Origin: an uncultured Alphaproteobacteria bacterium
Lineage (GTDB): Bacteria; Pseudomonadota; Alphaproteobacteria; VGEJ01
Direction of reading: 5' to 3'
Length of the DNA: 48,632 nt
NCBI GenBank assembly: GCA_913041535.1
Contig: CAJWJK010000013.1
Location: 1-48,632 of the forward strand
Each line of letters starts with the position of its first letter. Positions within the stretch are counted from its first letter, which is position 1. This document shows, piece by piece, positions 30,136-48,632 of this stretch. A model generated the notes under the pieces. It saw only the letters and a program-made list of their open reading frames with translations. It had not been told where the DNA came from and ran no database searches. A program made the translations under genes and the position numbers.

Positions 30136-30906
30136 TTGAGTATTACAGAACTGGAGTTGTTGGCTCCTCCAGGAATACCTTTGATTTCAAGAGATGCCGA
30201 TCTCGCAGACCTGATTCTCAAGGCAATCGAAGGTATGGGAAGGCAACTATCCAGTGGGGATATTGTTGTTGTTGCACAGAAAATTGTTTCAAAGGCTGAG
30301 GGACGTTATGTGAACCTTTGTGATGTAGATCCTTCACCTCGTGCAAAGCGATTGGCGGCTCGCACACATAAGGATGCCCGTTTTGTTGAGTTGGTATTAT
30401 CCGAGTCCAATGAAATTCTTCGGGAACGCCCTGGGTTATTGGTGGTGGTTCACCGCCTTGGTATAGTTCTTGCTAACGCAGGAATTGATTACTCCAATGT
30501 TTCGGATGATGGAGACACGAGTCGGGTATTGCTTCTTCCCGTAGACCCGGATTCTTCAAGCCAGCGTTTGCGGAATGACTTTCGTCGGTTATCGGGCGTT
30601 GATGTTGGCGTAATAATAAACGACAGCCTTGGGCGAGCATGGCGTAATGGAACAGTAGGAGTGGCCCTTGGAGCCGCTGGAATAAACCCACTTGCGGATT
30701 TGCGCAGTCGCGTTGACCTCTTCGGCCGCCCTTTAAATGTTACACAAGTTGCTGTGGCAGACGAATTGGCTGCTGCAGCATCACTTTTACAAGGTCAGGC
30801 GGATGAAGGTCGGCCCGCGGTTATAATAAAAGGCTGGGCTACAGACGAGATGGAACAGGGCGCAGCCAGTCTTGTACGCCCAGAGACAGAGGATATGTTT
30901 CGGTGA
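30136..30906 (+). CDS. cofE: Coenzyme F420-0:L-glutamate ligase
   Basis: A 256-residue CofE that adds gamma-linked glutamates to F420-0 using GTP. The start (LELLAPPGIPLI), DIVVVAQKIVSKAEGR (about residues 43-58), and INDSLGRAWRNGTVGVALGAAG (split over about 160-182) are diagnostic. It is the one-domain form seen in archaea and proteobacteria, without the C-terminal nitroreductase-like domain of actinobacterial FbiB. The start is TTG, supported by GAGG seven bases upstream and by the fit to the family N-terminus. Its end overlaps cofD by four bases, showing translational coupling. Confidence 0.95.
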   Translation: MSITELELLAPPGIPLISRDADLADLILKAIEGMGRQLSSGDIVVVAQKIVSKAEGRYVNLCDVDPSPRAKRLAARTHKDARFVELVLSESNEILRERPGLLVVVHRLGIVLANAGIDYSNVSDDGDTSRVLLLPVDPDSSSQRLRNDFRRLSGVDVGVIINDSLGRAWRNGTVGVALGAAGINPLADLRSRVDLFGRPLNVTQVAVADELAAAASLLQGQADEGRPAVIIKGWATDEMEQGAASLVRPETEDMFR

Positions 30907-31898
30907 CAAAGTTATTAAGGGAAGGTCCCTGTGTTTATCTTTCGGGAGGTGTTGGTGGTGCTAAACTCGCTTTAGGGTTGTCTTCGGTGCTTGATCCATC
31001 CAGTTTGATGATCGTTGCAAATACTGGGGACGACTTCGAACATCTTGGCCTTACAATTTGTCCGGACATAGACACGTTGGCTTATACGCTTGGTGGTGTT
31101 GCTAATACTGATCAGGGGTGGGGTCGGGAGGATGAGACTGATAGTTTTATGTCCGCCTTAGCCGATCTTGGAGGTGAGACGTGGTTCTTCCTCGGTGATA
31201 GAGATCTTGCAACACATATTGAACGTAGTGTGCGGCTCGCTTCAGGCGAGACCCTTACATCTATAACTGCAGGGCTGTGTTCGCGCCTTGGAGTGCGATG
31301 CCAAATCTTGCCTATGTCTGATGACCCTGTCCGAACTTTGGTCAATACTTCCAGCGGTTTGCTCGAATTTCAGCACTATTTTGTGCGTGATCGCTGTGAA
31401 CCTAGAGTTCTCGGTTTTCGTTTTATGGGAGCAGAGCAGGCCGAGCCTAATGCGCACGTGCTGAGGGCGCTATCCGACTCAACTTTGCGTTGTGTAATTA
31501 TTGGGCCGTCCAATCCTTATATAAGCATCGACCCTATTTTGGCATTGCCGGGCTTAATGGAGGCTTTAAAAGACATTAAGGCTCCGATTATAGCTGTATC
31601 GCCAATCATATCTGGCCGTGCGATAAAAGGGCCAACTGCTAAAATGATGCGGGAACTTGGACTCAGTGTATCAGTCCAGCAGATTGTTAAGCACTATGAG
31701 GGTTTGATTGATGGCATTGTTGTTGATACGTCTGATGTGTCAGCGTTGGACATTATCGATAAGGATTCTATTGAGGTGCGCTCTATGCGTACATTGATGA
31801 GCAATCTGGAGGATCGTGCAGAGCTTGCTCGGAGTGTGCTAAAGTTTGCTGATTATCTGAGCTACAAATGCACTGGTGCGTTAAGTGTTCAGGAATGA
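30903..31898 (+). CDS. cofD: 2-phospho-L-lactate transferase (F420-0 synthase)
   Basis: A 331-residue CofD/FbiA that joins the activated phospho-lactate (or equivalent) unit to the deazaflavin Fo, giving F420-0 or its dehydro form. The N-terminus VYLSGGVGGAKLALGLSSVL is the nucleotide-binding loop; ANTGDDFEHLGLTICPDIDTLAY (split at residues 41-63) and FFLGDRDLATHI are classic CofD blocks, and VSPIISGRAIKGPTAKMM lies near residue 240. It starts with GTG inside the end of cofE (GTGA). About 80 bases separate it from cofC. Whether it uses lactyl-, enolpyruvyl- or glyceryl-phosphate cannot be read from the sequence. Confidence 0.96.
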   Translation: MTKLLREGPCVYLSGGVGGAKLALGLSSVLDPSSLMIVANTGDDFEHLGLTICPDIDTLAYTLGGVANTDQGWGREDETDSFMSALADLGGETWFFLGDRDLATHIERSVRLASGETLTSITAGLCSRLGVRCQILPMSDDPVRTLVNTSSGLLEFQHYFVRDRCEPRVLGFRFMGAEQAEPNAHVLRALSDSTLRCVIIGPSNPYISIDPILALPGLMEALKDIKAPIIAVSPIISGRAIKGPTAKMMRELGLSVSVQQIVKHYEGLIDGIVVDTSDVSALDIIDKDSIEVRSMRTLMSNLEDRAELARSVLKFADYLSYKCTGALSVQE

Positions 31899-31981
31899 GT
31901 GATAGCACTAGTGGAAGGCAAGAAGAATTACGTTAGTAGCAAAGTCTAGTGGTTCATTGCTTAATTATTAGGACAGTATTG

Positions 31982-32674
31982 ATGTGGGCGATTGTACCGG
32001 TCAAAACCTTTGTTTATGCCAAGCAGCGTTTACGACGTGTACTTGATAGTGACGAGCGGGCGGCATTGTCTCGTGTGATGTTAGAGGATGTTCTTTCGGT
32101 TCTATCCTGTAGTAATCGATTCGTTGGCGTTGCTGTTGTCACAGGTGACATAGGAGCTGTTAAGTTATCCCGAAAACTTGGTGCTCGAGTAATCTCCGAT
32201 CCCAATGATTGTGGGCAGAGTTCGGCGGTCTCCAACGCAGTAGCAACGTTGATTAAAGAGGATATAGAAACTGTAGCTGTAATTCCGGGTGATGTTCCTT
32301 TAGTTACATCAGCCGAAATAGATTTGTTGCATGAGTCTCACAATGAAGCCCCATCCCTTACCGTTGCTCCAGCACACAACTGTGATGGCACCAATGCGCT
32401 GCTATGTTCGCCACCAACCGTCATTCAGTTCAAATTTGGCGAAAATAGTTTGAGTAAACATATTTCATTGGCCAAAGCGGTTGGAATCGTGCCCAATATA
32501 GTTCGGTGTGAGGGTCTGGGGTTGGATATAGATACTCCATCTGATCTTATGGCACTTATCGCCGCACCAACCAGAAGCCGTGCCCAGTCATACCTTCATG
32601 ACAAGGGGATTGCTTTGCGCGTTCGTTCTTATTCGAAAACCATCACGTCCATGAAGTTAGCGGAATCAAGCTGA
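31982..32674 (+). CDS. cofC: Phospholactate (or PEP) guanylyltransferase
   Basis: A 230-residue CofC/FbiD nucleotidyltransferase that activates 2-phospholactate, phosphoenolpyruvate or 3-phosphoglycerate with GTP for CofD. The start MWAIVPVKTFVYAKQRL matches the family's opening, where Lys binds the nucleotide. AVIPGDVPLVT near residue 98 holds the metal aspartate, and CDGTNALL (about 134) is conserved. LGLDIDTPSDL closes the fold. The frame extends back to 31949, but the family begins at the ATG of 31982. The stop TGA overlaps the fbiC ATG by one base, so the two are coupled. Confidence 0.93.
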   Translation: MWAIVPVKTFVYAKQRLRRVLDSDERAALSRVMLEDVLSVLSCSNRFVGVAVVTGDIGAVKLSRKLGARVISDPNDCGQSSAVSNAVATLIKEDIETVAVIPGDVPLVTSAEIDLLHESHNEAPSLTVAPAHNCDGTNALLCSPPTVIQFKFGENSLSKHISLAKAVGIVPNIVRCEGLGLDIDTPSDLMALIAAPTRSRAQSYLHDKGIALRVRSYSKTITSMKLAESS

Positions 32675-35142
32675 TGCAAAAAATTGAGATGCAATCGTCT
32701 TTAGGCCTTGCTGATGTTCAATCTGCGGTAGAAGCATCCTTAATTGTTGAGCGATATAATCTCGATACGTTGATGAAACAGGCGGCTCAGATTCGTGATC
32801 AAGGACACGGCACCAACGTCTCTTATTCACGTAAAGTATTTATACCGCTTACTCAACTGTGCCGAGATGTGTGTCACTACTGCACGTTCGCTAGCCCACC
32901 TAAGCGTGGAGAAAGTGCTTACTTATCACCTGATAAGATTCTGGATATTGCGAAAAAGGGTGCAGAGTCTGGGTGTCACGAGGCTTTATTTACTCTGGGG
33001 GATAAGCCGGAGCTCCGTTATCGCCTTGCACGCGAAGAGTTAACGGCGCTCGGCCACGACACGACTCTCTCCTACCTTGAAGAAATGGCGCGTCTGGTGA
33101 TTGATGAAACTGGGCTTTTGCCCCACCTCAATCCTGGCGTTATGACTGCATGTGAAATTGCCAATCTAAGAAAAGTTTCTGTTTCGCAAGGGATAATGCT
33201 TGAAAGTGTTTCCGAGCGCCTTTGTCACAAGGGACAGGCCCACCACGGGTCGCCTGATAAGGTGCCAAATATTCGCCTCGAGGCAATTCGCCTCGCTGGT
33301 GAAATGAGTGTTCCTTTTACATCTGGTATTCTTATTGGCATTGGAGAGACGCGAGTTGAGCGGATAGAGGGGTTGCTTGCGCTTCGAACTCTTCACGAGC
33401 GCTATGGTCACATCCAAGAAATTATCGTTCAGAACTTTCGGGCCAAGGCAGGCACTCGTATGGCTAATGCTCCCGAACCATCGTTAGAGGATCTTCTATG
33501 GACTATATCAGTCGCTAGGCTCATTTTTGGGAGTGAAATGAATATTCAGGCGCCGCCCAATCTAAGTTCGGGTTATTTGCCTCAACTGGTTGCGGCCGGC
33601 ATCAATGATTGGGGAGGTGTGTCACCGGTTACCCCAGATCATGTAAACCCTGAGGCACCATGGCCTAATCTTGATGATTTGGACGCCGAGACAGCAGTCT
33701 GTGGCAAAACCCTGACGCCTCGTCTTGCGATTTATCCTAGATATGTAGATGAGTTAGATCGGTGGGTTGACCCTCTGTTGCGACGCCCAGTTCTGCGCCA
33801 TGCTGATTCTGAAGGGTTTGCACGGGACCATAGGTGGTCCCCTGGTATAGAGCTTGATATCCCTCCAATAGGTGGGGGGCGCCGTCGTGGTATAGAGAGC
33901 CCAGTTTTGCGGTCAATTTGCAGTAAGGCGAGGGCAGGTGAAACGCTGTCTGAAACAGAAATTGTAAGACTATTTGCAGCCCGTGGAGCCGATTATCAGT
34001 ACGTTTGTCAGTCTGCCAACATTCTTCGCCAGGAGGTCTGCGGTGATCAAGTGACTTACGTCGTTAATCGAAACATAAACTATACCAATGTCTGTTTTTT
34101 TGGTTGCCGATTTTGTGCGTTCTCAAAGGGTAAGCTCAGTGAACAGTTGCGTGGACGCCCTTATGATCTAGAGCTTGGAGAGATTGGGCGGCGTGCACGA
34201 GAGGCGTGGGAGCGCGGTGCGACAGAGGTTTGTATGCAGGGAGGCATTCACCCAGATTATACAGGCCACACGTACTTAAAAATCTGCGAGACAGTTAAAG
34301 AGGCGGCGCCAGATATTCATGTTCATGCCTTTTCGCCGCTGGAGGTATGGCAAGGTGCCAGTACGCTTGGCATATCAGTTACTCAATTCCTCGCCAAACT
34401 GCGTGACGCAGGATTAAAATCCCTGCCTGGTACTGCAGCTGAGATCTTGGACGATGAAGTTCGAAACATCATCTGTCCCGATAAGATTAATTCAGAGCAA
34501 TGGCTAGAAGTTATGGCTGCGGCGCATAGCGTCAGTCTTTTGAGTACCGCCACTATCATGTTCGGTCATGTTGATAGTTCAAACCACTGGGCGCGACATT
34601 TATTACGGATACGGGCTCTACAATCAGAGACTGGTGGATTTACAGAGTTCGTACCGTTGCCGTTTGTCCATATGGAAGCGCCGTTATACCTGAAAGGGGA
34701 GGCGCGCAGAGGGCCAACGTTTCGTGAATCGGTTTTAATGCACGCTGTTGCTAGACTGGTTTTGCACCCTGTTATAGCTAATATCCAGACATCTTGGGTA
34801 AAAATGGGACCAAAAGGTGCTAAAGAGTGTCTAAGGGCGGGGGCAAATGACTTAGGTGGGACATTGATGAATGAAACAATCACTCGTGCAGCTGGTGCGT
34901 TGCATGGCCAAGAATTAGCGCCTCATCAAATGGAGTCTCTGATTCGTGCTATTGGCAGAGAGCCGAAACAGAGATCAACGCTTTATGGTCCTGTATCCAA
35001 TGATCGGGTAAATAGTTCATTTGCTGCGTCGGATCTTTCTCCGATCGTTAATCATCCAGCAGTACGGCGCTCACGGCGTCGAAAGGCAGATTTGCCTCGG
35101 AATGAAGACCTAAGGTCTCGTGTTGTAGGCGATGGACTTTAA
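32674..35142 (+). CDS. fbiC: Fused Fo synthase (CofG-CofH)
   Basis: An 822-residue bifunctional radical SAM enzyme that makes the deazaflavin Fo from tyrosine and the flavin precursor 5-amino-6-ribitylaminouracil. The N-terminal CofG half carries the iron-sulfur motif Cys63, Cys67, Cys70 (CRDVCHYC). The C-terminal CofH half carries Cys474, Cys478, Cys481 (CFFGCRFC). The junction lies near residue 400. Fusion is the actinobacterial and proteobacterial form; archaea have two genes. It follows cofC with a one-base overlap and overlaps the acyl-CoA dehydrogenase start by 11 bases, so transcription is continuous. All dedicated F420 genes are therefore in this block. Confidence 0.97.
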
Positions 35143-39037: not shown

Positions 39038-39979
39038 ATGACTATAGGTATAGGCGCGTACGGGCCACGCGCGGGCCGAGCAATTTATGACGCTCTAGCT
39101 GCAGCGGAGCGTGTAGGTGTGGGAGCAATTAGAGGTTTCGTGTCGTTTGCAGCGATCGATAAGCAAGGAAATATACTGCAATCCGAGACGCAACGGGGGG
39201 GGTCAACAACACTTTTTACTGAGGGTGAAAGGACAGGAGTCGAACCTCCCTCAGTGATTTCAGAGGCAAAGTTTGCAGGCCTTATATCCAGTGGCCCTGA
39301 TCGTCCTGATCCCTTATCTCAGTTTATGCTGGCGGATAAGGAAGGGGGGCTGATAACCGGTCATCGTATTCCCAATGCGGTTAGTGCTAGCGGACACCCC
39401 ATGAATGAAGAGGCTTTAAATCTTATGATAAAGGGGTACACGGCTCGCGAAGCCATCGATACAGTTATAGCAAGTAACCCTGAGGCGGATTGTGGCTTGA
39501 TTGCGGTAGATTGCCGGGGCGCAGCATTTGCTCGTAATACAGAGCGAGTAGAGCGTCGGCCGGATTTGGGTATGGCTCAACGGCATGACGAGTCAACTGG
39601 TGCGCAAGTACTTGTTCTTCATAATGCCATTCGACCGTATCCAGCACTGGCCGACCTTGTTGCCAATGTTGCGCTTGACACCATGATGGGAGAAAAGGCT
39701 CCAAAAGGTTGGATTACAATTGATGCGGGGACCCCTGTTGAAATGGGCACCGAGAATGCTGTTCACTGTGACAAGGAAGCTGTTGCTACTCGGATAATTA
39801 CCACGGATCCAGCGATAGGGGTGCGTGGCGACGTGGGCGCTGCGATTTACCTTAATAGTGTAGTGTATGTAGCGGGAAAAAATGCTGGACGCACCACCTT
39901 TGAACCGATTACGACCATGATGGATGGGTGTATTACTGAATTAAGTGGTAAGACGCGTTTACGGATGAGTTACTGCTAG
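39038..39979 (+). CDS. Conserved protein of unknown function (DUF6963-like)
   Basis: A 313-residue soluble protein opening with MTIGIGAYGPRAGRAIYDAL. I believe this is an uncharacterised family, possibly the one named DUF6963, but I cannot confirm the number. The start with Thr-Ile-Gly-Ile directly after Met, the later VDCRGAAFARN and the central GHRIPNAVSASGHPMNEEAL suggest an Ntn-hydrolase-like or isoaspartyl/gamma-glutamyl peptidase-like architecture; that is a guess from appearance. AGGGGG nine bases upstream supports the start. Its stop codon shares the four bases CTAG with the stop of the convergent chaC gene. It lies amid amide-cleaving enzymes. Confidence 0.6.
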   Translation: MTIGIGAYGPRAGRAIYDALAAAERVGVGAIRGFVSFAAIDKQGNILQSETQRGGSTTLFTEGERTGVEPPSVISEAKFAGLISSGPDRPDPLSQFMLADKEGGLITGHRIPNAVSASGHPMNEEALNLMIKGYTAREAIDTVIASNPEADCGLIAVDCRGAAFARNTERVERRPDLGMAQRHDESTGAQVLVLHNAIRPYPALADLVANVALDTMMGEKAPKGWITIDAGTPVEMGTENAVHCDKEAVATRIITTDPAIGVRGDVGAAIYLNSVVYVAGKNAGRTTFEPITTMMDGCITELSGKTRLRMSYC

Positions 39980-40650
39980 GGCGCCGTGTCGTTAGTCATC
40001 AATGAGACGACTTGTTTGCCAATGTTACTAAGAACTCGGTCGGGAATGCCGAGTTCATCAAGATGTGTGAGGGTGTTGAGTAAGTAGTCGGCGCAAGTGC
40101 CAATCGAGCCTTCTGCTGTCGCTATAGTCTTAGCAATTTGAGAATTCGATAGCCGTCCCGTATAGCGCTTACAATCACGATTCATTGCAAATGTTAAAGC
40201 AGTCTCTTGGTGGCCGTTGGTGCGGACTTGAATCCACGTCGGAATGTAAGCACCAGTAATCATTTCTCGTGCCCACACAATTGTTGTCTCCTCTTCGACA
40301 GCTGCGGCAGGGATGCGGTATAGAATCCCTTTACATGATCCGCCGCGTTCAAGCCCGAGCAAAAGGCCGGGACGGTCAGGGCTTCCACGGCCCAGGTTAG
40401 TCCAGAGGCAAAAGCGTCTATGATATCCGTGGACATAACCGATGCAGCGTTCAGAAAAGTTGAAAGCGGGATTCCACATGAGTGATCCGTAAGAAAAGAG
40501 CCACAAGTCTTCGGATGCATTGATGCTAGCCAATGCCGCTTTGCGGGAAGCATTTAGTTCTGATTCGCTCAAAATATCTATATCAACACCACTTTCAATT
40601 ATTTGTTGGCGAATCTGTCCACTTAGAAGGTTTTCTCTAGTAAGCTTCAT
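39976..40650 (-). CDS. chaC: ChaC-family gamma-glutamylcyclotransferase
   Basis: A 224-residue ChaC protein. The family marks are LWLFSYGSLMWNPAF (about residues 50-64), which binds the substrate, CIGYVHGYHRRFCLW directly after, and the TIVWAREMITGAY segment with the catalytic glutamate. ChaC enzymes split glutathione or other gamma-glutamyl compounds to 5-oxoproline and the amine partner, for example Cys-Gly. The 5-oxoprolinase-type fusion at 22607 would recycle the product. It starts three bases after the D-aminoacylase stop and so ends the tupBCA unit. Confidence 0.9.
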   Translation of the reverse strand: MKLTRENLLSGQIRQQIIESGVDIDILSESELNASRKAALASINASEDLWLFSYGSLMWNPAFNFSERCIGYVHGYHRRFCLWTNLGRGSPDRPGLLLGLERGGSCKGILYRIPAAAVEEETTIVWAREMITGAYIPTWIQVRTNGHQETALTFAMNRDCKRYTGRLSNSQIAKTIATAEGSIGTCADYLLNTLTHLDELGIPDRVLSNIGKQVVSLMTNDTAP

Positions 40651-40653
40651 AAA

Positions 40654-42108
40654 TTAGGTAGCTCTTTTGAGTACTCGTCCCTGTCGCACGCCGGTTGTCC
40701 GACCTTCCTGCCATGCGACAAGCCCATTGACTATCACCCGTTCGATCCCATCAGCCTGTTGAAGGGGATCTTCGTATGTTGATCGGTCTGTTATCCTCTC
40801 TGCGTCAAAAATGACGAGATCAGCAAACGCACCTGCTTTTAGTTGGCCTCGGTCCTTAAGGCCAAAGCGGTTCGCAGACAACTGCGTCATTTTTCTTACG
40901 GCTTCCTCTAAACTGAAAAGTCCCAATTCCCGAGCATAATGTCCAAGGATGCGAGGGAAAGTTCCCCACAGACGTGGATGAGGTTTAGTATCGTGCGGGA
41001 GTCCATCAGAGCCTATCATGGAATGAGGGTGACGCAGCACCCGCCTTACGTCTTCTTCATCCATCATAAAGTAAACTGCTCCCGCAGGTTGTAGGCGTTG
41101 GCACATCTGTTGCTCACTCATCTCCATTTCAGCTGCGATTTCGTGAAGATATCGACCGGCCGCTGAGGGTATGGCTGTGGACCAAGTAATTAAAACTTTA
41201 CTGCCTTCCTCTAAAAACTCCGGCAATAGAGCCGTTGAACCAGCAGCATAGGGATATACGTCAAGTCCCACATCCTGCGACAAACGAACAGTGTCAATTC
41301 GTGCCAATGTCTCGTGTGTGCGGCCAAAGTTCTTAACACCCGCGCACTTATGGTGTGAAATAATCACCGGTAGTTTAGCGCGCCGACCTATCTCAAATGT
41401 TTCTTCTAGGGATTCTGATACTTGGTCGTGTTCGTTACGCATGTGGGTGACGTATAATCCGTCACTGATTGCGGCAATTTCTGCCAATGCAATTACTTCT
41501 TCTGTCGGTGCTGCTGAGTTCGTGGGATAGAATAGTCCCGTTGAAAAACCGAGTGCCCCTGCTTTCATGCTATCACCTAGTAATTTGCGCATGGTGTGTA
41601 TTTCGGTGTCAGTGGCTGGTCTGTTAACATCGCACATTGTTCCTACCCGTAGCGTAGAGTGTCCGACGAGTAAGGCAGCATTAACAGCTGGGGGCCTCTT
41701 CTCTAGCTCTTCTATGTAGTCATCCATGGTTATAAATCGATACCAACTCTGATCTCCGAGAAGATTCATCGGGGGCGGGGGAGGTCGATTTAGGTGAATT
41801 GGTGAAAGACTAATACCACAGTTTCCCACAATTACAGTCGTGACACCCTGACTAATTTTCATTGCCATTTGAGGGTCTGATATTAGGGCTCTATCGTCGT
41901 GGGTATGCACGTCGATGAATCCAGGGGAAACTATTCTTCCCGTTGCATCTATCTCCTGTTCGGATACGGTGTTTCCCATGTCGCCGACGGACGTGATTCT
42001 GTCACCGCTTATCGCGATATCTGCTTTTGTTCGTGTACTTCCAGTACCATCGATGACGGTGCCGTTCCGAATAATTAGATCACAGTGTTCTGGGGTGTTT
42101 TCAACCAT
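40654..42108 (-). CDS. N-acyl-D-amino acid deacylase (amidohydrolase superfamily)
   Basis: A 484-residue amidohydrolase that removes the acyl group from N-acyl-D-amino acids. The zinc ligands His68 and His70 (FIDVHTHDD) and the family-specific Cys97 (VGNCGIS) are present. GALGFSTGLFYP and VTHMRNE follow, and SDGLPHDTKPHPRLWGTFPRIL (split near residue 370) holds the catalytic Asp. The last 60 residues give the typical small beta-domain (GAFADLVIFD). Length fits. It sits 54 bases after tupA and 3 bases before chaC on the same strand, a curious pairing with tungstate uptake. Confidence 0.93.
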   Translation of the reverse strand: MVENTPEHCDLIIRNGTVIDGTGSTRTKADIAISGDRITSVGDMGNTVSEQEIDATGRIVSPGFIDVHTHDDRALISDPQMAMKISQGVTTVIVGNCGISLSPIHLNRPPPPPMNLLGDQSWYRFITMDDYIEELEKRPPAVNAALLVGHSTLRVGTMCDVNRPATDTEIHTMRKLLGDSMKAGALGFSTGLFYPTNSAAPTEEVIALAEIAAISDGLYVTHMRNEHDQVSESLEETFEIGRRAKLPVIISHHKCAGVKNFGRTHETLARIDTVRLSQDVGLDVYPYAAGSTALLPEFLEEGSKVLITWSTAIPSAAGRYLHEIAAEMEMSEQQMCQRLQPAGAVYFMMDEEDVRRVLRHPHSMIGSDGLPHDTKPHPRLWGTFPRILGHYARELGLFSLEEAVRKMTQLSANRFGLKDRGQLKAGAFADLVIFDAERITDRSTYEDPLQQADGIERVIVNGLVAWQEGRTTGVRQGRVLKRAT

Positions 42109-42162
42109 TGTTTTTCCTGTAATACGAAGTTGCGGATCGACAAAACAGTTAACCAGGAGTTT

Positions 42163-42996
42163 TTACTCGATAACCTCTGGAGCATTCGGATAAAATAGTT
42201 GCTCTCCGCTAATTTTATAGTGACTGATTAGCTTTTGGGCTTCTGGGCTCGTGATCCACTTTACGAAAAGCTTTGCAGCTGCCGCTTGCACGTGAGGATG
42301 GCGACCAGGATTTACGGCTAGTACTGTGTATTGATTACGCATTTTTGGGTCTCCCGAGGATAGGATAGTTAAAGTACCCTTGTTCTGAAAAGCAAGCCAT
42401 GTTGCGCGGTCTACTACTGTGTAGGCACCCATGCCGTTAGCGAGGTTTAGCGCGGCCCCCATTCCAGAGCCCGTTTCACGGTACCACGAGTGGGCTGCAT
42501 CAACATTTATATGAGCTTCTCTCCATAACTTTCGTTCGGCCATGTGAGTACCGCTGTAGTCGCCTCGAGATACAAATAATGCCTGTGCAGTTGCGATTCG
42601 GCGGAGTGCTTTGGTAGCGTCTTTTATGTTTGAGAGGCTGGCTGGATCGTTTTGCGGCCCAACGATGATATAATCGTTATACATGACTTTGTGCCGAGAC
42701 AAGGCGTGGCCCTCAGCCACTAATTTCTCTTCTGAATTCTTATGGTGTACAAGCAAAACATCGGCATCGCCATTCTTGGCAAGGCGGATAGCTTGCCCAG
42801 AACCTATTGCAATGACATGAACTCTAATGCCCGTTCGTGATTGAAAGGCAGGCAATAAAAATTGCAACAAGCCAGAGTTTTCCGTGGATGTGGTCGAGGC
42901 AAGTACAATCTGACTATCTTCTATCGCAAAAGCACTGGTGGCGATATCGAAGGCTAGCCAACAGAGAACCAAGGGAATTAACCTGAGAGTTACCAC
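42163..42996 (-). CDS. tupA: Tungstate ABC transporter substrate-binding protein
   Basis: The periplasmic oxyanion-binding component, 277 residues, with a signal peptide to about residue 24. TupA marks are clear: LASTTSTENSGLLQFLLPAF with the T-T-S-T oxyanion loop, GSGQAIRLAKNGDADVLLVH, and SRGDYSGTHMAE. ModA of the molybdate system lacks the TTST opening, so tungstate is the better call, though some TupA proteins bind molybdate or vanadate too. Its start overlaps the tupC end by seven bases. It is the last transport gene of tupB-tupC-tupA. Confidence 0.92.
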   Translation of the reverse strand: MVTLRLIPLVLCWLAFDIATSAFAIEDSQIVLASTTSTENSGLLQFLLPAFQSRTGIRVHVIAIGSGQAIRLAKNGDADVLLVHHKNSEEKLVAEGHALSRHKVMYNDYIIVGPQNDPASLSNIKDATKALRRIATAQALFVSRGDYSGTHMAERKLWREAHINVDAAHSWYRETGSGMGAALNLANGMGAYTVVDRATWLAFQNKGTLTILSSGDPKMRNQYTVLAVNPGRHPHVQAAAAKLFVKWITSPEAQKLISHYKISGEQLFYPNAPEVIE

Positions 42997-43724
42997 AATA
43001 GCTCCCCTGCAAGAAAACCTTGGGCTTCTGGGCTATCTGGAGACTCGAAGAACATGGCGGCGCTTGTATCCTCTATGACTTTTCCCTTATGTAGAAAAAT
43101 TACTTCATGGGCAATTCTTCGAGCTTGGGCAAGGTCATGACTGGTCATAATAATTTTTGTTCCGGAACGATCGATTGCGCGGACAATATCTTCTACAGCG
43201 CGTGTAGAAGCGGGATCAAGGCTTGCAGTTGGCTCGTCGAGAAATAAAACTTCTGGTTTGAGGACCCAAGCACGTGCAAGCGCTAACCTTTGCTGTTCTC
43301 CGATTGATAAGTGGTGGGCGGGTGTCCGTGCTACCTCTGATAATCCAGTGCGAGCGAGCGCTTCGTCAGCCAGGTGGTTGAGTTTGCGTTTGCTTGTTCC
43401 ATTAAGTCTAAGCGCATAGCGAATGTTGGCATGGGCACTTCTTCTAAGCATCACTGGCCTTTGAAAAACCATAGCCTGCCGTACGCCACCATTGACGATG
43501 GCGCTTCCGTGCCAGCATACGCTTCCCTCTCGGGGTGTAATTAATCCATGACAGATGCGAAGAAGTACGCTTTTTCCAGCACCATTTGGTCCAAGTATCA
43601 CGGTTCGTGGTCCAGTTTCAATCTCGAGTGAAACTTGGCACAGTATATTGCGGCCATTCGCTGCATATGTGACATCGCTTAATGTAAGCGGTAGAGAGTT
43701 GGTAACATTTTGTCCCGTTCTCAT
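42990..43724 (-). CDS. tupC: Tungstate ABC transporter ATP-binding protein
   Basis: A 244-residue ABC ATPase with Walker A GPNGAGKSV (about residues 46-54; Val replaces the usual final Thr/Ser), signature LSIGEQQRLALARA, Walker B EVLFLDEPT and H-loop MTSHDLAQARRI. In the signature, S-I-G replaces S-G-G, a common variant in this group. It lacks the regulatory C-terminal domain of ModC. Overlaps of four bases with tupB and seven with tupA show a tight operon. Confidence 0.92.
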   Translation of the reverse strand: MRTGQNVTNSLPLTLSDVTYAANGRNILCQVSLEIETGPRTVILGPNGAGKSVLLRICHGLITPREGSVCWHGSAIVNGGVRQAMVFQRPVMLRRSAHANIRYALRLNGTSKRKLNHLADEALARTGLSEVARTPAHHLSIGEQQRLALARAWVLKPEVLFLDEPTASLDPASTRAVEDIVRAIDRSGTKIIMTSHDLAQARRIAHEVIFLHKGKVIEDTSAAMFFESPDSPEAQGFLAGELLW

Positions 43725-44425
43725 TTTGGATCTCGACGCACTGAATCGCGGATAATAAATACTGACGCGTTAACAGCGATAGACATCATTACTAGAATCA
43801 TGCCTAGCCCAAGTGCTAGCGTGAGGTTACCTTTACTGGTCTCTAAAGAAATTGTAGTTGTCATTACGCGGGTTAGATGTTCGATATTTCCTCCAACAAT
43901 CATAACCGCACCCACCTCCGCCGTGGCTCTACCTAGGCCAGCGAGTACTGCGGTGGTGAGTGTGAATCTTGCTTCCCAAAGAAGAGTTGTTAGAGCTCTT
44001 GTCGGCCCTGCTCCAAGGGATATAAGTTGTTCTCGGTATTCCTTCCATAAGTCTTCAATAGCTTGATGCGTGAGCGCAGTTATAATTGGCGTTATTAGGA
44101 TTACTTGCGCAATGATCATTGCGGTAGGGGTGTACAGAAGTCCAAATACGCCCATAGGTCCGGAACGTGAGAGTAGAAGATAAACGAATAGACCTACTAC
44201 AACAGGTGGTAACCCCATTAGTGCGCTCGTAATCATTATAATGGTTCGTCGGCCGAAAAAATTGAAGACCGCCAAGGATGCACCTAGGGGCAGGCCAAGC
44301 AGGGAGGCTAATGTAACTGAACTGCAATTAACATTGAGTGAAAGTAGGACAATTTCTACAAGGTCCGAATCGAGGGTTACCACCAAATGGATAGCTGCTG
44401 CTACCGCTGCTGATATTTCACCCAT
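43721..44425 (-). CDS. tupB: Tungstate ABC transporter permease
   Basis: A 234-residue permease with about five membrane helices and the family's cytoplasmic coupling loop EEYREQLISLGAGPTRAL-like text (here YREQLISLGAGPTRALTTLLWE, about residues 133-154). Near its end ATAEVGAVMIVGGNIEHLTRVMTT (split) is typical of TupB. It is the first gene of the tupB-tupC-tupA-deacylase-chaC unit. The 199 bases upstream hold a weak inverted repeat, CATAAT/ATTATG (44507-44535), which could be an operator. No WtpR- or ModE-like regulator is adjacent. Confidence 0.92.
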   Translation of the reverse strand: MGEISAAVAAAIHLVVTLDSDLVEIVLLSLNVNCSSVTLASLLGLPLGASLAVFNFFGRRTIIMITSALMGLPPVVVGLFVYLLLSRSGPMGVFGLLYTPTAMIIAQVILITPIITALTHQAIEDLWKEYREQLISLGAGPTRALTTLLWEARFTLTTAVLAGLGRATAEVGAVMIVGGNIEHLTRVMTTTISLETSKGNLTLALGLGMILVMMSIAVNASVFIIRDSVRRDPK

Positions 44426-44624
44426 ACCCGGTTTCCGTTAAAAAAGACAGCTGCCGATTGTCACGCGTTTGTTAGGAGTTTTAGGCCATTGGGGCTTTGG
44501 TGATGTCATAATGGATTATTTCATATCTGATTATGTGCAAATCAATATTCGAATGAAACTTGAGGTTATACCGGTTGTAGCACACTGCTGTTGCGGGAAG
44601 CATGGCCGAACTGTTGATTGAGTG

Positions 44625-46892
44625 CTAGCGTGTTGGGAGAGCAAACGGTTCATCATTGGCAAAGCGTCTAAGGATATTTCCAGTAAGGCGCGCTACGTTG
44701 TTATTATAGTTGTGTGAAGGAAGGCTTCCGCACCAGGCGATGGAACTAAATGAGAACACCGCACCTCCATTGGGGGTTTCGTAGAACACAAGGTCAGCTC
44801 GTATTAGCGGATTAGCCGTTGCAATTTGAATTGGAGTAGCAAGAACCTGCTCTTCATTAACTAGCAAATAATTGTCAGTTAGGTCTTCAGACTTTGCCAC
44901 AGTGAGAGCATGTGGTGGTGTGCCGAGGCTGCGGTCTGCAATGTCCACTTCAAGGCCTGCAGCTCCTCCACCCTGAAGACCAAAATTTCCAATTAATTCG
45001 TCAGTGGAAATTCCGTCAAAGGCCCATGAAATTCGAGGGTCCTCAGATTCGGGAGTTCGGCGATAATAACTACAGGTATCAAAGCCCTGTGCTATGAAGC
45101 CGGTTCCCGCTATGGATTGCGGAGCTTTTCCATGATGGCGCCATAGGCAGGAATAATCACCGTCAAAGCTGTGGTAGGATTCACCTGGCTGAGAACGCCA
45201 GTTGCGAGTTCCGTCCTCTCCACGTCGTACTTCAATCACACCAGGAAGAGAATTATGATAGGCGGTGTGCCAATAAAAACCATTGCCTCCCATATACATT
45301 AGTCGTCCGCCTTGTTGGGTAAAGGAGTAGAGAGCATTCCACATGTTTTTGGTTGTATACTCTGGGTGAGTCCCAGTAATGACTACGTTATAGTCACTCA
45401 ATGCCTGGAGACCATCTTCATGGATGTCCTCATCCGTTATAACATCAAAGCTAAGACCCTCATGTTCAAGCCAGCCGGTGAGATGTGTATCTGCGTTGTA
45501 GGCCCACAAACCTGAGCCGGCCGATGTGGCGTGCTGAACACCAGGCCGCATATTGATCATCGGACGCAATCTTGAGGAGTAGCAAACGCCGCTTCCGTCT
45601 GAGTGAACATCGTAAAGTGAGGCGCCAAACTGTGGGTGCCCACTAAGGTATTCCTCCCAAGGGTGTATCTCGACTAGTCTGCCCATAAGAAGTTCCATGA
45701 ACTGGGCATTGGGCGCTGCTTGATAGTTGGCGTAAGCCATATAAGAAGCAGTTTGAGCGAGGTAACAAATTTTTTCTTTTGCCTGTCCTTTAGCGGAACG
45801 GACAAAGAACGGTATATAATCCTCGCCATCGTCACTACTTAAGTATGCGGCATAGCAGCCACTTTTCATATGCCGTGGAATCGTTAGAGAAAAATCAACT
45901 TCCCACTCACAATCATAAAAATCATCGTCGTGAAAGTGGATTGCCCCGTACTGATCTGGTGCTATGGTCCAATCGAGAATCTCTCCTGTCCAATTGCAGC
46001 CTGTCATTGCCCTTGCAGGCAGGTTAAACACGTCACCATGTAGGCCGTTTGCACTAATATCTGAAATTTTTGTATCAGTTATATCCAAGGAGAAATCCCA
46101 TGCAGCGACAAGCGTTGAACGATGTTGTTGGGGACTGCGATCGTGGAGAAAGTAATGCATTTCTGCTTGCGTCAGCGAGCAATTAGCAAGCCGCGGGCTG
46201 TCAATCTTTCCATTGAAGTGTTTCGTTGTCGTTTTGCGCTTTTTAACTGTGCGGGCAATAGTTGCAGCTATTGTCAGGGGCATTCCAGCTGCGATGTGCC
46301 GTTTGAATCGTATAGTTTTAGATGTTTCGGCAGAAACTTCGGAGCCGTAGTTCTTCATAGGGCATTGATAAACCATTGCTTTCCGAGATTTTGCATCGTA
46401 GCTGCAACCAACTAGATACCACTCGCGCTCTAGCAGTGAGGTGGACGTACCGATTGAATCCTTTTTATGGCCATTGCCCAAAACTAGGGACAGACCTCCT
46501 GATTCATCTATACAGAGTTGGAACCCTTTGGCGTTATGTTCATCCCAGTGTGCAACAATAACTTGCTCACCTTTCATTGGCGTTGTAGGCCAGATCGCCG
46601 TAACAAAAGAGAAACTATTAAGCTGATCGAGAAGTTTGCAATGCGGAACTACACCGTAAGATCCTGCATATGAAAACTGTTTTCGCCCTTTATATGTGCC
46701 ATTAGCGGCGGTGCTGACAGTAGTTTCCTTGTATCCTGGACCTTTCGGATTAGGGTCACCATTGATAATGCGCCTGATTTCTGCGTTGTATGAAGTTGCG
46801 CGCTCACAACTCACCATAAAGTCTATGGTTTCGCCCACAGCTACACTTATTTTGTCTGAATATCCGAGAATCTGTCCTACCGCTTTTGCCAT
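44625..46892 (-). CDS. N,N-dimethylformamidase large (catalytic) subunit-like protein
   Basis: A 755-residue protein matching the large subunit of N,N-dimethylformamidase, the enzyme that hydrolyses dimethylformamide to dimethylamine and formate with a mononuclear iron. The N-terminal part looks like a lectin/jelly-roll domain (about residues 60-270). The C-terminal half has the glutamine-amidotransferase-like catalytic fold with YNVVITGTHPEYTTKNMW. The His509-x-Glu511 pair is the likely counterpart of iron ligands His519 and Glu521 known from the Paracoccus enzyme; Tyr437 or Tyr427 is a candidate for the third. AGGA lies seven bases before the ATG. The small subunit is encoded upstream on the same strand, which supports the assignment. 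The natural substrate may be another formamide. Confidence 0.85.
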   Translation of the reverse strand: MAKAVGQILGYSDKISVAVGETIDFMVSCERATSYNAEIRRIINGDPNPKGPGYKETTVSTAANGTYKGRKQFSYAGSYGVVPHCKLLDQLNSFSFVTAIWPTTPMKGEQVIVAHWDEHNAKGFQLCIDESGGLSLVLGNGHKKDSIGTSTSLLEREWYLVGCSYDAKSRKAMVYQCPMKNYGSEVSAETSKTIRFKRHIAAGMPLTIAATIARTVKKRKTTTKHFNGKIDSPRLANCSLTQAEMHYFLHDRSPQQHRSTLVAAWDFSLDITDTKISDISANGLHGDVFNLPARAMTGCNWTGEILDWTIAPDQYGAIHFHDDDFYDCEWEVDFSLTIPRHMKSGCYAAYLSSDDGEDYIPFFVRSAKGQAKEKICYLAQTASYMAYANYQAAPNAQFMELLMGRLVEIHPWEEYLSGHPQFGASLYDVHSDGSGVCYSSRLRPMINMRPGVQHATSAGSGLWAYNADTHLTGWLEHEGLSFDVITDEDIHEDGLQALSDYNVVITGTHPEYTTKNMWNALYSFTQQGGRLMYMGGNGFYWHTAYHNSLPGVIEVRRGEDGTRNWRSQPGESYHSFDGDYSCLWRHHGKAPQSIAGTGFIAQGFDTCSYYRRTPESEDPRISWAFDGISTDELIGNFGLQGGGAAGLEVDIADRSLGTPPHALTVAKSEDLTDNYLLVNEEQVLATPIQIATANPLIRADLVFYETPNGGAVFSFSSIAWCGSLPSHNYNNNVARLTGNILRRFANDEPFALPTR

Positions 46893-47125
46893 ATAGATTT
46901 CCTGACTTTCGTAATGACTACGGGGTGTTGCAACTCAGGTGGTTAGTTGGCTGCTAAAGTAATGGTTACATCTCATAAATAAATATAGCCAATTCTAAAT
47001 GGGATGTGACATTCATGTCTGTCTTTATGTATTGCCTTATTAATTATCAAGTTATTCTAATAAGTAATTTCTTTCATGGCTTGGAACTATGGCAACAAGA
47101 TTATTTCGCGTTTTGGGTAGCGCTT

Positions 47126-47428
47126 TTAAAGATTTAACTCATGTCCAGTATGTTTTTTCCACCGAAGTCGGAAAACTTCGCGTTCGGCATCCTCGATCGA
47201 GTTAAAAACCTTTCCCTTAACAAGCTTTATTGGCTTGTCGCGCATGCCAGTTAGTGTTGCGAGTTGCCACTCTTTAAAGGGTTTGGTGCAAACAAGCACG
47301 TACTTTCCCTTAAGGGGTTCTCCACGAAATACCATGAGCACGCGTTGAAGTTCAGGGCTGTGATGTCCGATAGGATTAGCCATGAATTCCTCTGCTACGT
47401 GCTTTAAGTTATGGTTTACCGTGTACAT
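47126..47428 (-). CDS. N,N-dimethylformamidase small subunit-like protein
   Basis: A 100-residue basic protein. I start it at the ATG of 47428, with AGGA six bases upstream, instead of the longer frame from 47476. HHSPELQRVLMVFRG, KEWQLATLTGMRDKP and the end EREVFRLRWKKHTGHEL recall the ~15-kDa light chain of dimethylformamidase. The main support is position: it lies 233 bases upstream of the large-subunit gene on the same strand, the order known for dmfA1-dmfA2. The light chain stabilises the tetramer and has no known catalysis. The family call is probable, not certain. Confidence 0.7.
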   Translation of the reverse strand: MYTVNHNLKHVAEEFMANPIGHHSPELQRVLMVFRGEPLKGKYVLVCTKPFKEWQLATLTGMRDKPIKLVKGKVFNSIEDAEREVFRLRWKKHTGHELNL

Positions 47429-47639
47429 GTTGTTTCCTGATGTTAAGGTCTTACGACACTCTACTACGATAGCCAAACGATACGCACAGGTCTACGGCAA
47501 TACTTTGTTATGATGATCTAAGCGATTTTGGAATAGTTTTTTTGATCCTTGTGCATGCTAGTTCAGGTACACTATTTAATTGTAGGACGATGAGTATGGG
47601 AGTTAAGTCCTTGGGCGGAAATATGGGGTGCAGTATAGA

Positions 47640-48212
47640 ATGCGTTTGATTGTGGCTTTGACTGGAGCAACGGGGGTTGTCCTCGGTGTGCGCCTATTGC
47701 AGGCGCTCAAGGATATTGGCGATATGGAGACTCATCTTATTGTGAGTAAGTGGGGGCAACAAACTCTTGAACACGAGACCACAGTTACATTGACTGGTTT
47801 GAGAGAGTTAGCATCTCACACGTATTCTCCTGGAGACATGACTGCAGCGTTGTCGTCTGGTTCATTTGGCATAGATGGAATGGTGATTGTTCCATGCTCC
47901 ATGAGGACTCTTGCAGCTGTGACGTATGGATATGGAGATAATCTTATACATCGAGCTGCTGATGTGACTCTTAAAGAACAGCGGCCCTTAGTAGTTGTAC
48001 CTCGAGAAACGCCCTTAAGCGCTACTCATTTGGAGAATATGCTAAGGTTGGCACGGGCGGGCGTGACTATCTTGCCGCCTATGCCAGCATTTTATAACCA
48101 CCCGGCGACGGTTGAAGAAATAGTCGACCATGTGGTAGGACGAATTCTTGATCAGCTCGGTATAACGACAAGTCTATCCGTACGCTGGTCAGGTGAGATG
48201 AAGCGTTCCTAA
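47640..48212 (+). CDS. ubiX: UbiX-like flavin prenyltransferase
   Basis: A 190-residue flavoprotein of the UbiX/Pad1 family, which attaches a prenyl group to FMN to make the cofactor of UbiD-type decarboxylases. MRLIVALTGATGVVLGVRLL is the FMN loop; VPCSMRTLAAVTYGYGDNLIHRAADV (split) and VVVPRETPLSATHLENMLRLA are core motifs; ILPPMPAFYNHP completes the site. The start is the ATG at 47640; a GTG at 47628 is also in frame. No ubiD homologue is in the window, so it may serve a distant one or a decarboxylase just beyond. It is divergent from the dimethylformamidase genes. Confidence 0.9.
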   Translation: MRLIVALTGATGVVLGVRLLQALKDIGDMETHLIVSKWGQQTLEHETTVTLTGLRELASHTYSPGDMTAALSSGSFGIDGMVIVPCSMRTLAAVTYGYGDNLIHRAADVTLKEQRPLVVVPRETPLSATHLENMLRLARAGVTILPPMPAFYNHPATVEEIVDHVVGRILDQLGITTSLSVRWSGEMKRS

Positions 48213-48464: not shown

Positions 48465-48632
48465 TGGCATACTTTTATCAAACAGGAAATCCCAAAAAAA
48501 ATTAAACTTATTATAGGGGGAAAAAATAGGACAGAATCTTCATATCTAGGCTTACAGGCTTGTTCAGATGAGTGTGAAAATGTACTTATTCATGATGCTG
48601 CAAGGCCTTTTGCTTCCAAAAAATTATTTAAT
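48465..48632 (+). CDS. ispD: IspD (MEP cytidylyltransferase) internal fragment, foreign
   Basis: About 55 codons open to the window end. IKLIIGGKNRTESSYLGLQA and NVLIHDAARPFAS match the GG-x-R-x-S and HDAARP blocks of IspD/TarI-type cytidylyltransferases, which make CDP-methylerythritol in isoprenoid synthesis (or CDP-ribitol in the TarI branch). There is no start of its own, and the DNA is clearly richer in A and T than everything before it, so it comes from another source. Confidence 0.82.

Follow-up and report, generated by a model that had tools for sequence, protein, structure and literature searches.

Which amide does an enzyme resembling dimethylformamidase (DMFase) hydrolyze in an uncultured alphaproteobacterium? 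The question is raised by two genes at positions 44625-47428 (minus strand) of a 48,632-nucleotide stretch of DNA, which we call the window: contig CAJWJK010000013.1 of GenBank assembly GCA_913041535.1 (GTDB lineage VGEJ01). An initial annotation, made from the sequence of the window, proposed a two-subunit DMFase-like enzyme, noted that hydrolysis of dimethylformamide (DMF) gives formate and dimethylamine, and suggested that an adjacent importer (TupABC) could supply a tungsten formate dehydrogenase (FDH). Our comparisons of sequences and predicted structures confirm the enzyme class. As for the substrate, the reading that we favor, with moderate confidence, is that this amidohydrolase of the DMFase family, with two subunits and Fe(III), acts on a natural amine or amino acid carrying an N-formyl or N-acyl group, and not on DMF. 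The reference is the DMFase of Paracoccus sp. DMF (DmfA1/DmfA2; PDB structure 6lvb), and the residue counts below are from an alignment of 108 sequences.

47126..47428, minus strand: small subunit, dmfA1-like, 100 amino acids, ATG start (6lvb_B, alignment, and model)
44625..46892, minus strand: large catalytic subunit, dmfA2-like, 755 amino acids (PF20254, 6lvb_A, and structural similarity by TM-score)
45732..45734, minus strand: codon of Y387, predicted iron ligand (Y399 of 6lvb); Tyr in 108/108
45612..45614, minus strand: codon of Y427, predicted iron ligand (Y440 of 6lvb); Tyr in 108/108
45360..45368, minus strand: codons of H509-P510-E511, catalytic His (H519 of 6lvb) and iron-ligand Glu (E521 of 6lvb) by alignment; His in 108/108, Glu in 108/108
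45282..45284, minus strand: codon of N537 (active-site N547 of 6lvb); Asn in 105/108
44841..44843, minus strand: codon of L684, at the place of the pocket-narrowing F693 of 6lvb (by alignment, in a low-confidence loop)

The open reading frame (ORF) of 755 amino acids matches PF20254 (named DMFA2_C in Pfam) at 2e-95 (320.8 bits, cut-off 27), and the large subunit of 6lvb over residues 8-750 (3.5e-152); the homology is whole-length. The predicted structure has a mean pLDDT of 87, and its top three structure matches are chains of the 6lvb series, with TM-scores of 0.91-0.93 (0.93 to 6lvb_A). The TM-score to the N-acetyl-(R)-beta-phenylalanine acylase (8huy_A) is 0.86. In the solved DMFase, iron is bound by Y399, Y440, and E521, H519 is essential, and N547 lies in the active site (available part of PMC7686228). 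All five residues have counterparts in the window enzyme, and both tyrosines, the histidine, and the glutamate are invariant in the family. The initial annotation had placed an H-x-E pair at the iron site. The pair does exist, although the histidine of the solved enzyme is catalytic rather than an iron ligand, and the two tyrosine ligands, also present here, had gone unmentioned. The prospect that iron-site residues would be absent from a proper alignment was not borne out.

The probable small subunit that had been noticed upstream also holds up, by sequence and by model. It matches 6lvb_B at 4e-5 (the query was a 116-amino-acid ORF with an earlier start) and shares 25-54% identity with 22 other small subunits. 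Its predicted structure has a pLDDT of 94.8, and the sole credible Foldseek matches are small subunits of DMFase: 6lvv_B (1.6e-5, TMq 0.73), 6lvb_B (2.0e-5), and 6lvd_B (1.3e-3), with the fourth match at 0.17. Across the family, 83 of 106 large-subunit genes have a small-subunit gene within a fixed distance. The 23 that were scored as having no small subunit include fused genes (L118, L130, and L140; loci of relatives are numbered with L), genes at contig ends (such as L036 and L124), L045_10447, and L141, whose small subunit is present slightly past the distance limit used. In the three fusions, one of them from Marivibrio halodurans (L130), the small subunit is joined to the N-terminus of the large subunit (7e-26 to 2.6e-29), which adds weight to the view that the pair is obligate.

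Metal, mechanism, and the role of the small subunit are taken from the solved homologue, while homology, fold, residues, and gene pairing are seen in the window. The large subunit, with its Ig-like, pentraxin-like, and ThuA-like catalytic domains, would bind one ferric ion through Y387, Y427, and E511. Water would attack the iron-polarized carbonyl of the amide, assisted by H509 and N537, to give a carboxylic acid and an amine. Packing on the catalytic domain, the small subunit would be needed for a stable, active enzyme. For the Paracoccus DMFase, the available part of PMC7686228 describes the mutants Y440A, E521A, and H519A, as well as the large subunit alone, as inactive.

Several observations separate the window enzyme from DMFase proper. 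The large subunit is 37.5% identical to 6lvb and 38.1% identical to 8huy. In a FastTree phylogeny of 108 sequences, it falls in a clade (support 1.0) with an orthologue from another genome of the same family (G001, 69.4% identity), a paralogue from its own genome (53.3%, on contig C1), and a protein from a metagenome-assembled genome of the Methylobacteriaceae (53.7%). By locus, the window groups with L034, L032, and L067, and 6lvb with L064, L120, and L117. The partners of 6lvb include a Rhodococcus plasmid protein (51.8%) along with others, and the window enzyme lies outside that clade. The acylase 8huy, in turn, sits with seven large subunits that lack a small subunit (support 1.0). (Before building the tree, we dropped L086, L082, L125, L127, and L123 as duplicates, since contig number, length, and place of the match indicated the same contigs as L038, L039, L035, L036, and L045; we also dropped matches spanning less than 1900 nucleotides and L045_10447, whose branch length of 4.37 led us not to take it as a family member. 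The large-subunit gene of L045/L123 has an in-frame stop and was excluded from the alignments.)

In the Paracoccus enzyme, F693 is the side chain that restricts larger amides (PMC7686228, available part). The aligned position, in a loop of low model confidence, is Leu in the window enzyme and in the G001 orthologue, is Phe in 13 of 108 aligned sequences, and is Tyr in L061, a pair with an adjoining LuxR-type regulator gene. A natural comparison comes from Paracoccus aminophilus JCM 7686, where loss of plasmid pAMI2 abolishes DMF use and a homologous pair on pAMI5, whose subunits share 34% and 40% identity with those of the true DMFase, was not linked to DMF use (in the part of PMC4543880 available). 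The pAMI5 dmfA1-dmfA2 pair (L056) is also a two-subunit homologue, and its large subunit is 43.4% identical to that of the window; it differs in having Phe at the F693 position and an AmiS/UreI transporter nearby. Given the clade, the F693 position, and the pAMI5 case, the name "dimethylformamidase" should not be transferred at about 37.5% identity. The window enzyme shares with the Paracoccus DMFase the two subunits, the three-domain large subunit, and the iron-site residues, and it differs in identity, clade, the leucine at 684, and its conserved gene neighbors (see below). By its sequence, it is probably not a DMFase in the strict sense, and it groups with neither DMFase nor the acylase.

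The surroundings of the relatives hint at amines or amino acids. We surveyed 1185 neighboring ORFs around 105 large-subunit genes. After the small subunit, the commonest clusters of neighbors are ATPases of ABC (ATP-binding cassette) transporters (28 loci, read by eye) and class III aminotransferases (13 loci, with a representative confirmed). Locus L070, from a sister clade, has MgsA-, MgsC-, and GlnA-like genes alongside the pair, together with a PotA/PotB-like transporter and a class III aminotransferase; surroundings of this type look like an amine-catabolic operon. The pair has Mgs-like genes nearby in four separate loci (L070, L089, L081, and L038), two of which (L070 and L038) also have GlnA-like genes. 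Some of nine named plasmid loci are near spermidine/putrescine-type transporters, amine oxidases, or D-amino-acid genes. These contexts suggest that the relatives are a family of amide hydrolases releasing amines or amino acids, with DMFase as one specialized case.

The genome that contains the window (G000; 2.09 Mb in 39 contigs, completeness 100, contamination 4.25) encodes three large subunits, on contigs C13 (the window), C1, and C22. The C1 and C22 copies are 53% and 48% identical to the window's. Two of the three have small subunits (C13 and C22), and none is near the C1 copy. Three diverged large subunits, two of them with small subunits, in a genome of this size suggest different substrates. 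The C1 paralogue (323686-325988; L032:10686-12989) is close to genes for hydantoinase B, TENA/THI-4, and an oligopeptide-type ABC transporter. We considered a TGA inside this paralogue as a recoding event and rejected it, as the TGA is the gene's own terminal stop.

Could this organism use the products of a small formamide? A W/Mo FDH, which the initial annotation expected elsewhere in the genome, is indeed encoded on C21. Its 919-amino-acid alpha subunit and 561-amino-acid fused beta subunit match the subunits of the tungsten FDH1 of Methylorubrum extorquens (MeFDH1; 7vw6) nearly end to end, at 1372.9 and 787.4 bits. The FDH1 of Methylorubrum is the best or near-best solved relative (the TIGR01591 score is 749, against a cut-off of 666), and the two-subunit make-up is shared. 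The C21 enzyme differs in not being beside tupBCA, and its metal is assigned by homology. The only other PF00384 protein in the genome is NuoG. There are also three PF20256 matches, from the xanthine-dehydrogenase family, and a molybdate-type ModA (186.2 bits, over the cut-off) shares contig C12 with one of these.

For the amine half, we found no match in the genome to PF11927 (HODM_asu-like in Pfam), which we take to be the family of dimethylamine monooxygenase and HODM, and for a full trimethylamine N-oxide (TMAO) demethylase there were only partial matches below the cut-off. Hydrolysis of DMF to formate and dimethylamine fits poorly with the lack of PF11927 and with the differences from DMFase in clade and at the F693 position. 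However, there is a complete N-methylglutamate pathway for methylamine (mgdABCD, mgsABC, and gmaS) at C1:297110-311669, some 12 kb away from the large-subunit paralogue on C1. GmaS has a TIGR03105 score of 662.9, against a cut-off of 469.6. The other parts are SoxB/D/A/G-like or belong to GATase/GXGXG/Glu_synthase, and because the Sox-type parts score below the cut-offs for sarcosine oxidase, MgdABCD was assigned by gene order and parts. If amides such as N-methylformamide were hydrolyzed, the methylamine carbon could pass through the N-methylglutamate pathway and the formate through the W-type FDH. Both formate and methylamine could thus be usable by the organism, which is permissive for a substrate but not specific for one. 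Separately, some 5 kb away from the amidase pair on C22, a 302-amino-acid protein (C22:18588-19496; L033) is similar to TMAO demethylase over the first quarter of the model (positions 8-203 of 763, 7.7e-41), at the N-terminal end, and stops early in DUF1989.

Downstream of the pair are five more genes on the same strand. In order of transcription, they are:

43721..44425, minus strand: TupB-like permease (NF038017 over its cut-off; NF041773 under it, 167.2 of 320)
42990..43724, minus strand: TupC-like ATPase (PF00005; TupC model under its cut-off, 110.3 of 400)
42163..42996, minus strand: TupA-like binding protein (NF041772, 220.9 bits, cut-off 400)
40654..42108, minus strand: amidohydrolase like N-acyl-D-amino-acid deacylase, a conserved neighbor (PF07969, 1.6e-42; 68% identical gene at the G001 locus)
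39976..40650, minus strand: ChaC-like gamma-glutamylcyclotransferase, a conserved neighbor (PF04752, 3.1e-38; 47% identical and in the same order in G001)

The successive gaps from the small subunit to chaC are 233, 199, -4, -7, 54, and 3 nucleotides. The genes from tupB through chaC look like one operon, with the two amidase genes somewhat apart. A scan of 39900-47700 for promoters and terminators gave 11 and 7 sites, versus 11.4 and 6.8 in shuffled sequences. Because the Tup proteins score below the NCBIfam equivalog cut-offs, "tungstate" is probable rather than certain. The 40654..42108 product is Amidohydro_3 by its Pfam name, and we presume that it is a D-aminoacylase.

Large-subunit matches (E <= 0.001) were found in 20 of 116 relatives searched. 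G001 is the only one of the 116 from the same family, and it is informative about the neighborhood. There, a cupin protein comes next after the large-subunit orthologue (69-70% identical over the part of the gene that is present), and then the D-aminoacylase and ChaC. No tupABC lies among them, and G001 had no match to TupA at E <= 0.001. Its best FDH is 35% identical to the W-type FDH of the window's genome. A genome that keeps the amidase while lacking TupA and a close W-type FDH fits a pairing of Tup with FDH1 that is independent of the amidase. The presence of the W-type FDH together with the separate ModA for molybdate makes it plausible that TupABC feeds tungsten to FDH1, so that part of the initial annotation is reasonable; the tie to the amidase, which is not conserved, is not supported. 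TupABC probably serves the W-type FDH and is probably an incidental neighbor of the amidase.

We weighed three other explanations. The idea that the amidase and TupABC are one functional unit, with the importer kept there to support removal of formate made by the amidase, could appeal to the shared strand of all seven genes (39976-47428), to FDH being the likely tungsten enzyme of this genome, and to the moeA1-mobB-tupBCA cluster of M. extorquens, which has the same tup order (PMC13197769, available part). We rejected it as very improbable: there is a gap of 199 nucleotides between the large-subunit gene and tupB, the FDH is encoded on a different contig, G001 has the amidase and its two conserved neighbors without TupABC, and none of the other 109 loci has a tupA or tupB homologue (E <= 1e-8). 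A true DMF or N-methylformamide amidase, sending formate to the W-type FDH and methylamines to the N-methylglutamate pathway, would account for the intact active site, the small subunit, and the presence of both pathways in the genome. N-methylformamide also has the highest catalytic efficiency among the substrates of the Paracoccus DMFase (PMC7686228, Table 1, in the part available). Nevertheless, this seems quite unlikely given the position outside the DMFase clade at 37.5% identity, the replacement of F693, the absence of PF11927, and the comparable pAMI5 homologue that was not linked to DMF use.

An acylase for N-acyl (perhaps D- or beta-) amino acids, which with the D-aminoacylase and ChaC would recycle acylated amino acids or gamma-glutamyl peptides, is the likeliest of the three, although we still consider it unlikely. 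In its favor, the D-aminoacylase and ChaC are kept beside the G001 large subunit, L101 has a D-aminoacylase (54% identical) some 7 kb upstream of its pair, and the plasmid pairs of Burkholderia G4 and Rhizobium CB3171 are near D-amino-acid dehydrogenase and other amino-acid genes. The solved N-acetyl-(R)-beta-phenylalanine acylase also has the same iron-site residues; a literature search on this enzyme turned up no account of its biology. However, the acylase subgroup consists of solo large subunits (seven loci and 8huy), and the window pair, with its small subunit, is placed elsewhere. Also, among 110 loci (many of them short), D-aminoacylase homologues are near only the window, L034, L101, and, weakly, L049, and ChaC is near only the window and L034.

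Our preferred substrates, natural N-formyl or N-acyl amines or amino acids, must also be set against several awkward points. The Mgs-like neighbors are in sister clades and not at the window locus. The D-aminoacylase and ChaC would suit N-acyl amino acids or gamma-glutamyl compounds no less than alkyl amides. The N-methylglutamate pathway and FDH are common methylotrophy genes and are on other contigs, so they say little about the substrate. The F693 position sits in a loop of low model confidence (residues 681-687, pLDDT < 50) with a variable alignment. Finally, 233 nucleotides (46893-47125) separate the two subunit genes, which are closer together in most of the relatives that we looked at, so co-expression is assumed. 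Overall, an N-formyl or N-acyl amine is the most likely substrate and an N-acyl amino acid the next, with DMF or N-methylformamide less likely. The suggestion in the initial annotation that natural formamides are likelier than industrial DMF is compatible with this evidence.

Three other features of the window are worth recording. A UbiX-family flavin prenyltransferase gene (47628-48212), near the VdcB model (271.4 of 290 bits), is divergent from the small-subunit gene. A cluster for coenzyme F420 biosynthesis lies at 30136-35142 (cofE, cofD, cofC, and a fused cofGH, or fbiC), with all scores above the NCBIfam cut-offs. The last 164 bases (48469-48632) have a GC fraction of 0.31, versus 0.47 for the window, and only 0.12% of 164-nucleotide windows are as low. 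They encode a fragment of IspD that runs in frame into the N-terminal end of a luciferase-like oxidoreductase and are probably a chimeric contig end.

In our searches, the DMFase family turned up in many bacterial phyla and in a halophilic archaeon, and one genome often carries several copies, yet DMF itself has been present in the environment for just over a hundred years. A broader, tentative idea, which we think possible but doubtful, is that a large and ancient family of natural Fe(III) amidases has DMFase as an outlier turned toward xenobiotics. The natural amidases would free small amines from N-formyl or N-acyl amines for gamma-glutamylation by GlnA/Mgs-type enzymes and catabolism, and the window enzyme and both of its paralogues would then belong to this group, in a lineage living partly on methylamine and related amines. 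The natural substrates of the family, once known, would explain the origin of DMFase, and they would warn against labeling homologues as DMF degraders when the identity is about 40%.

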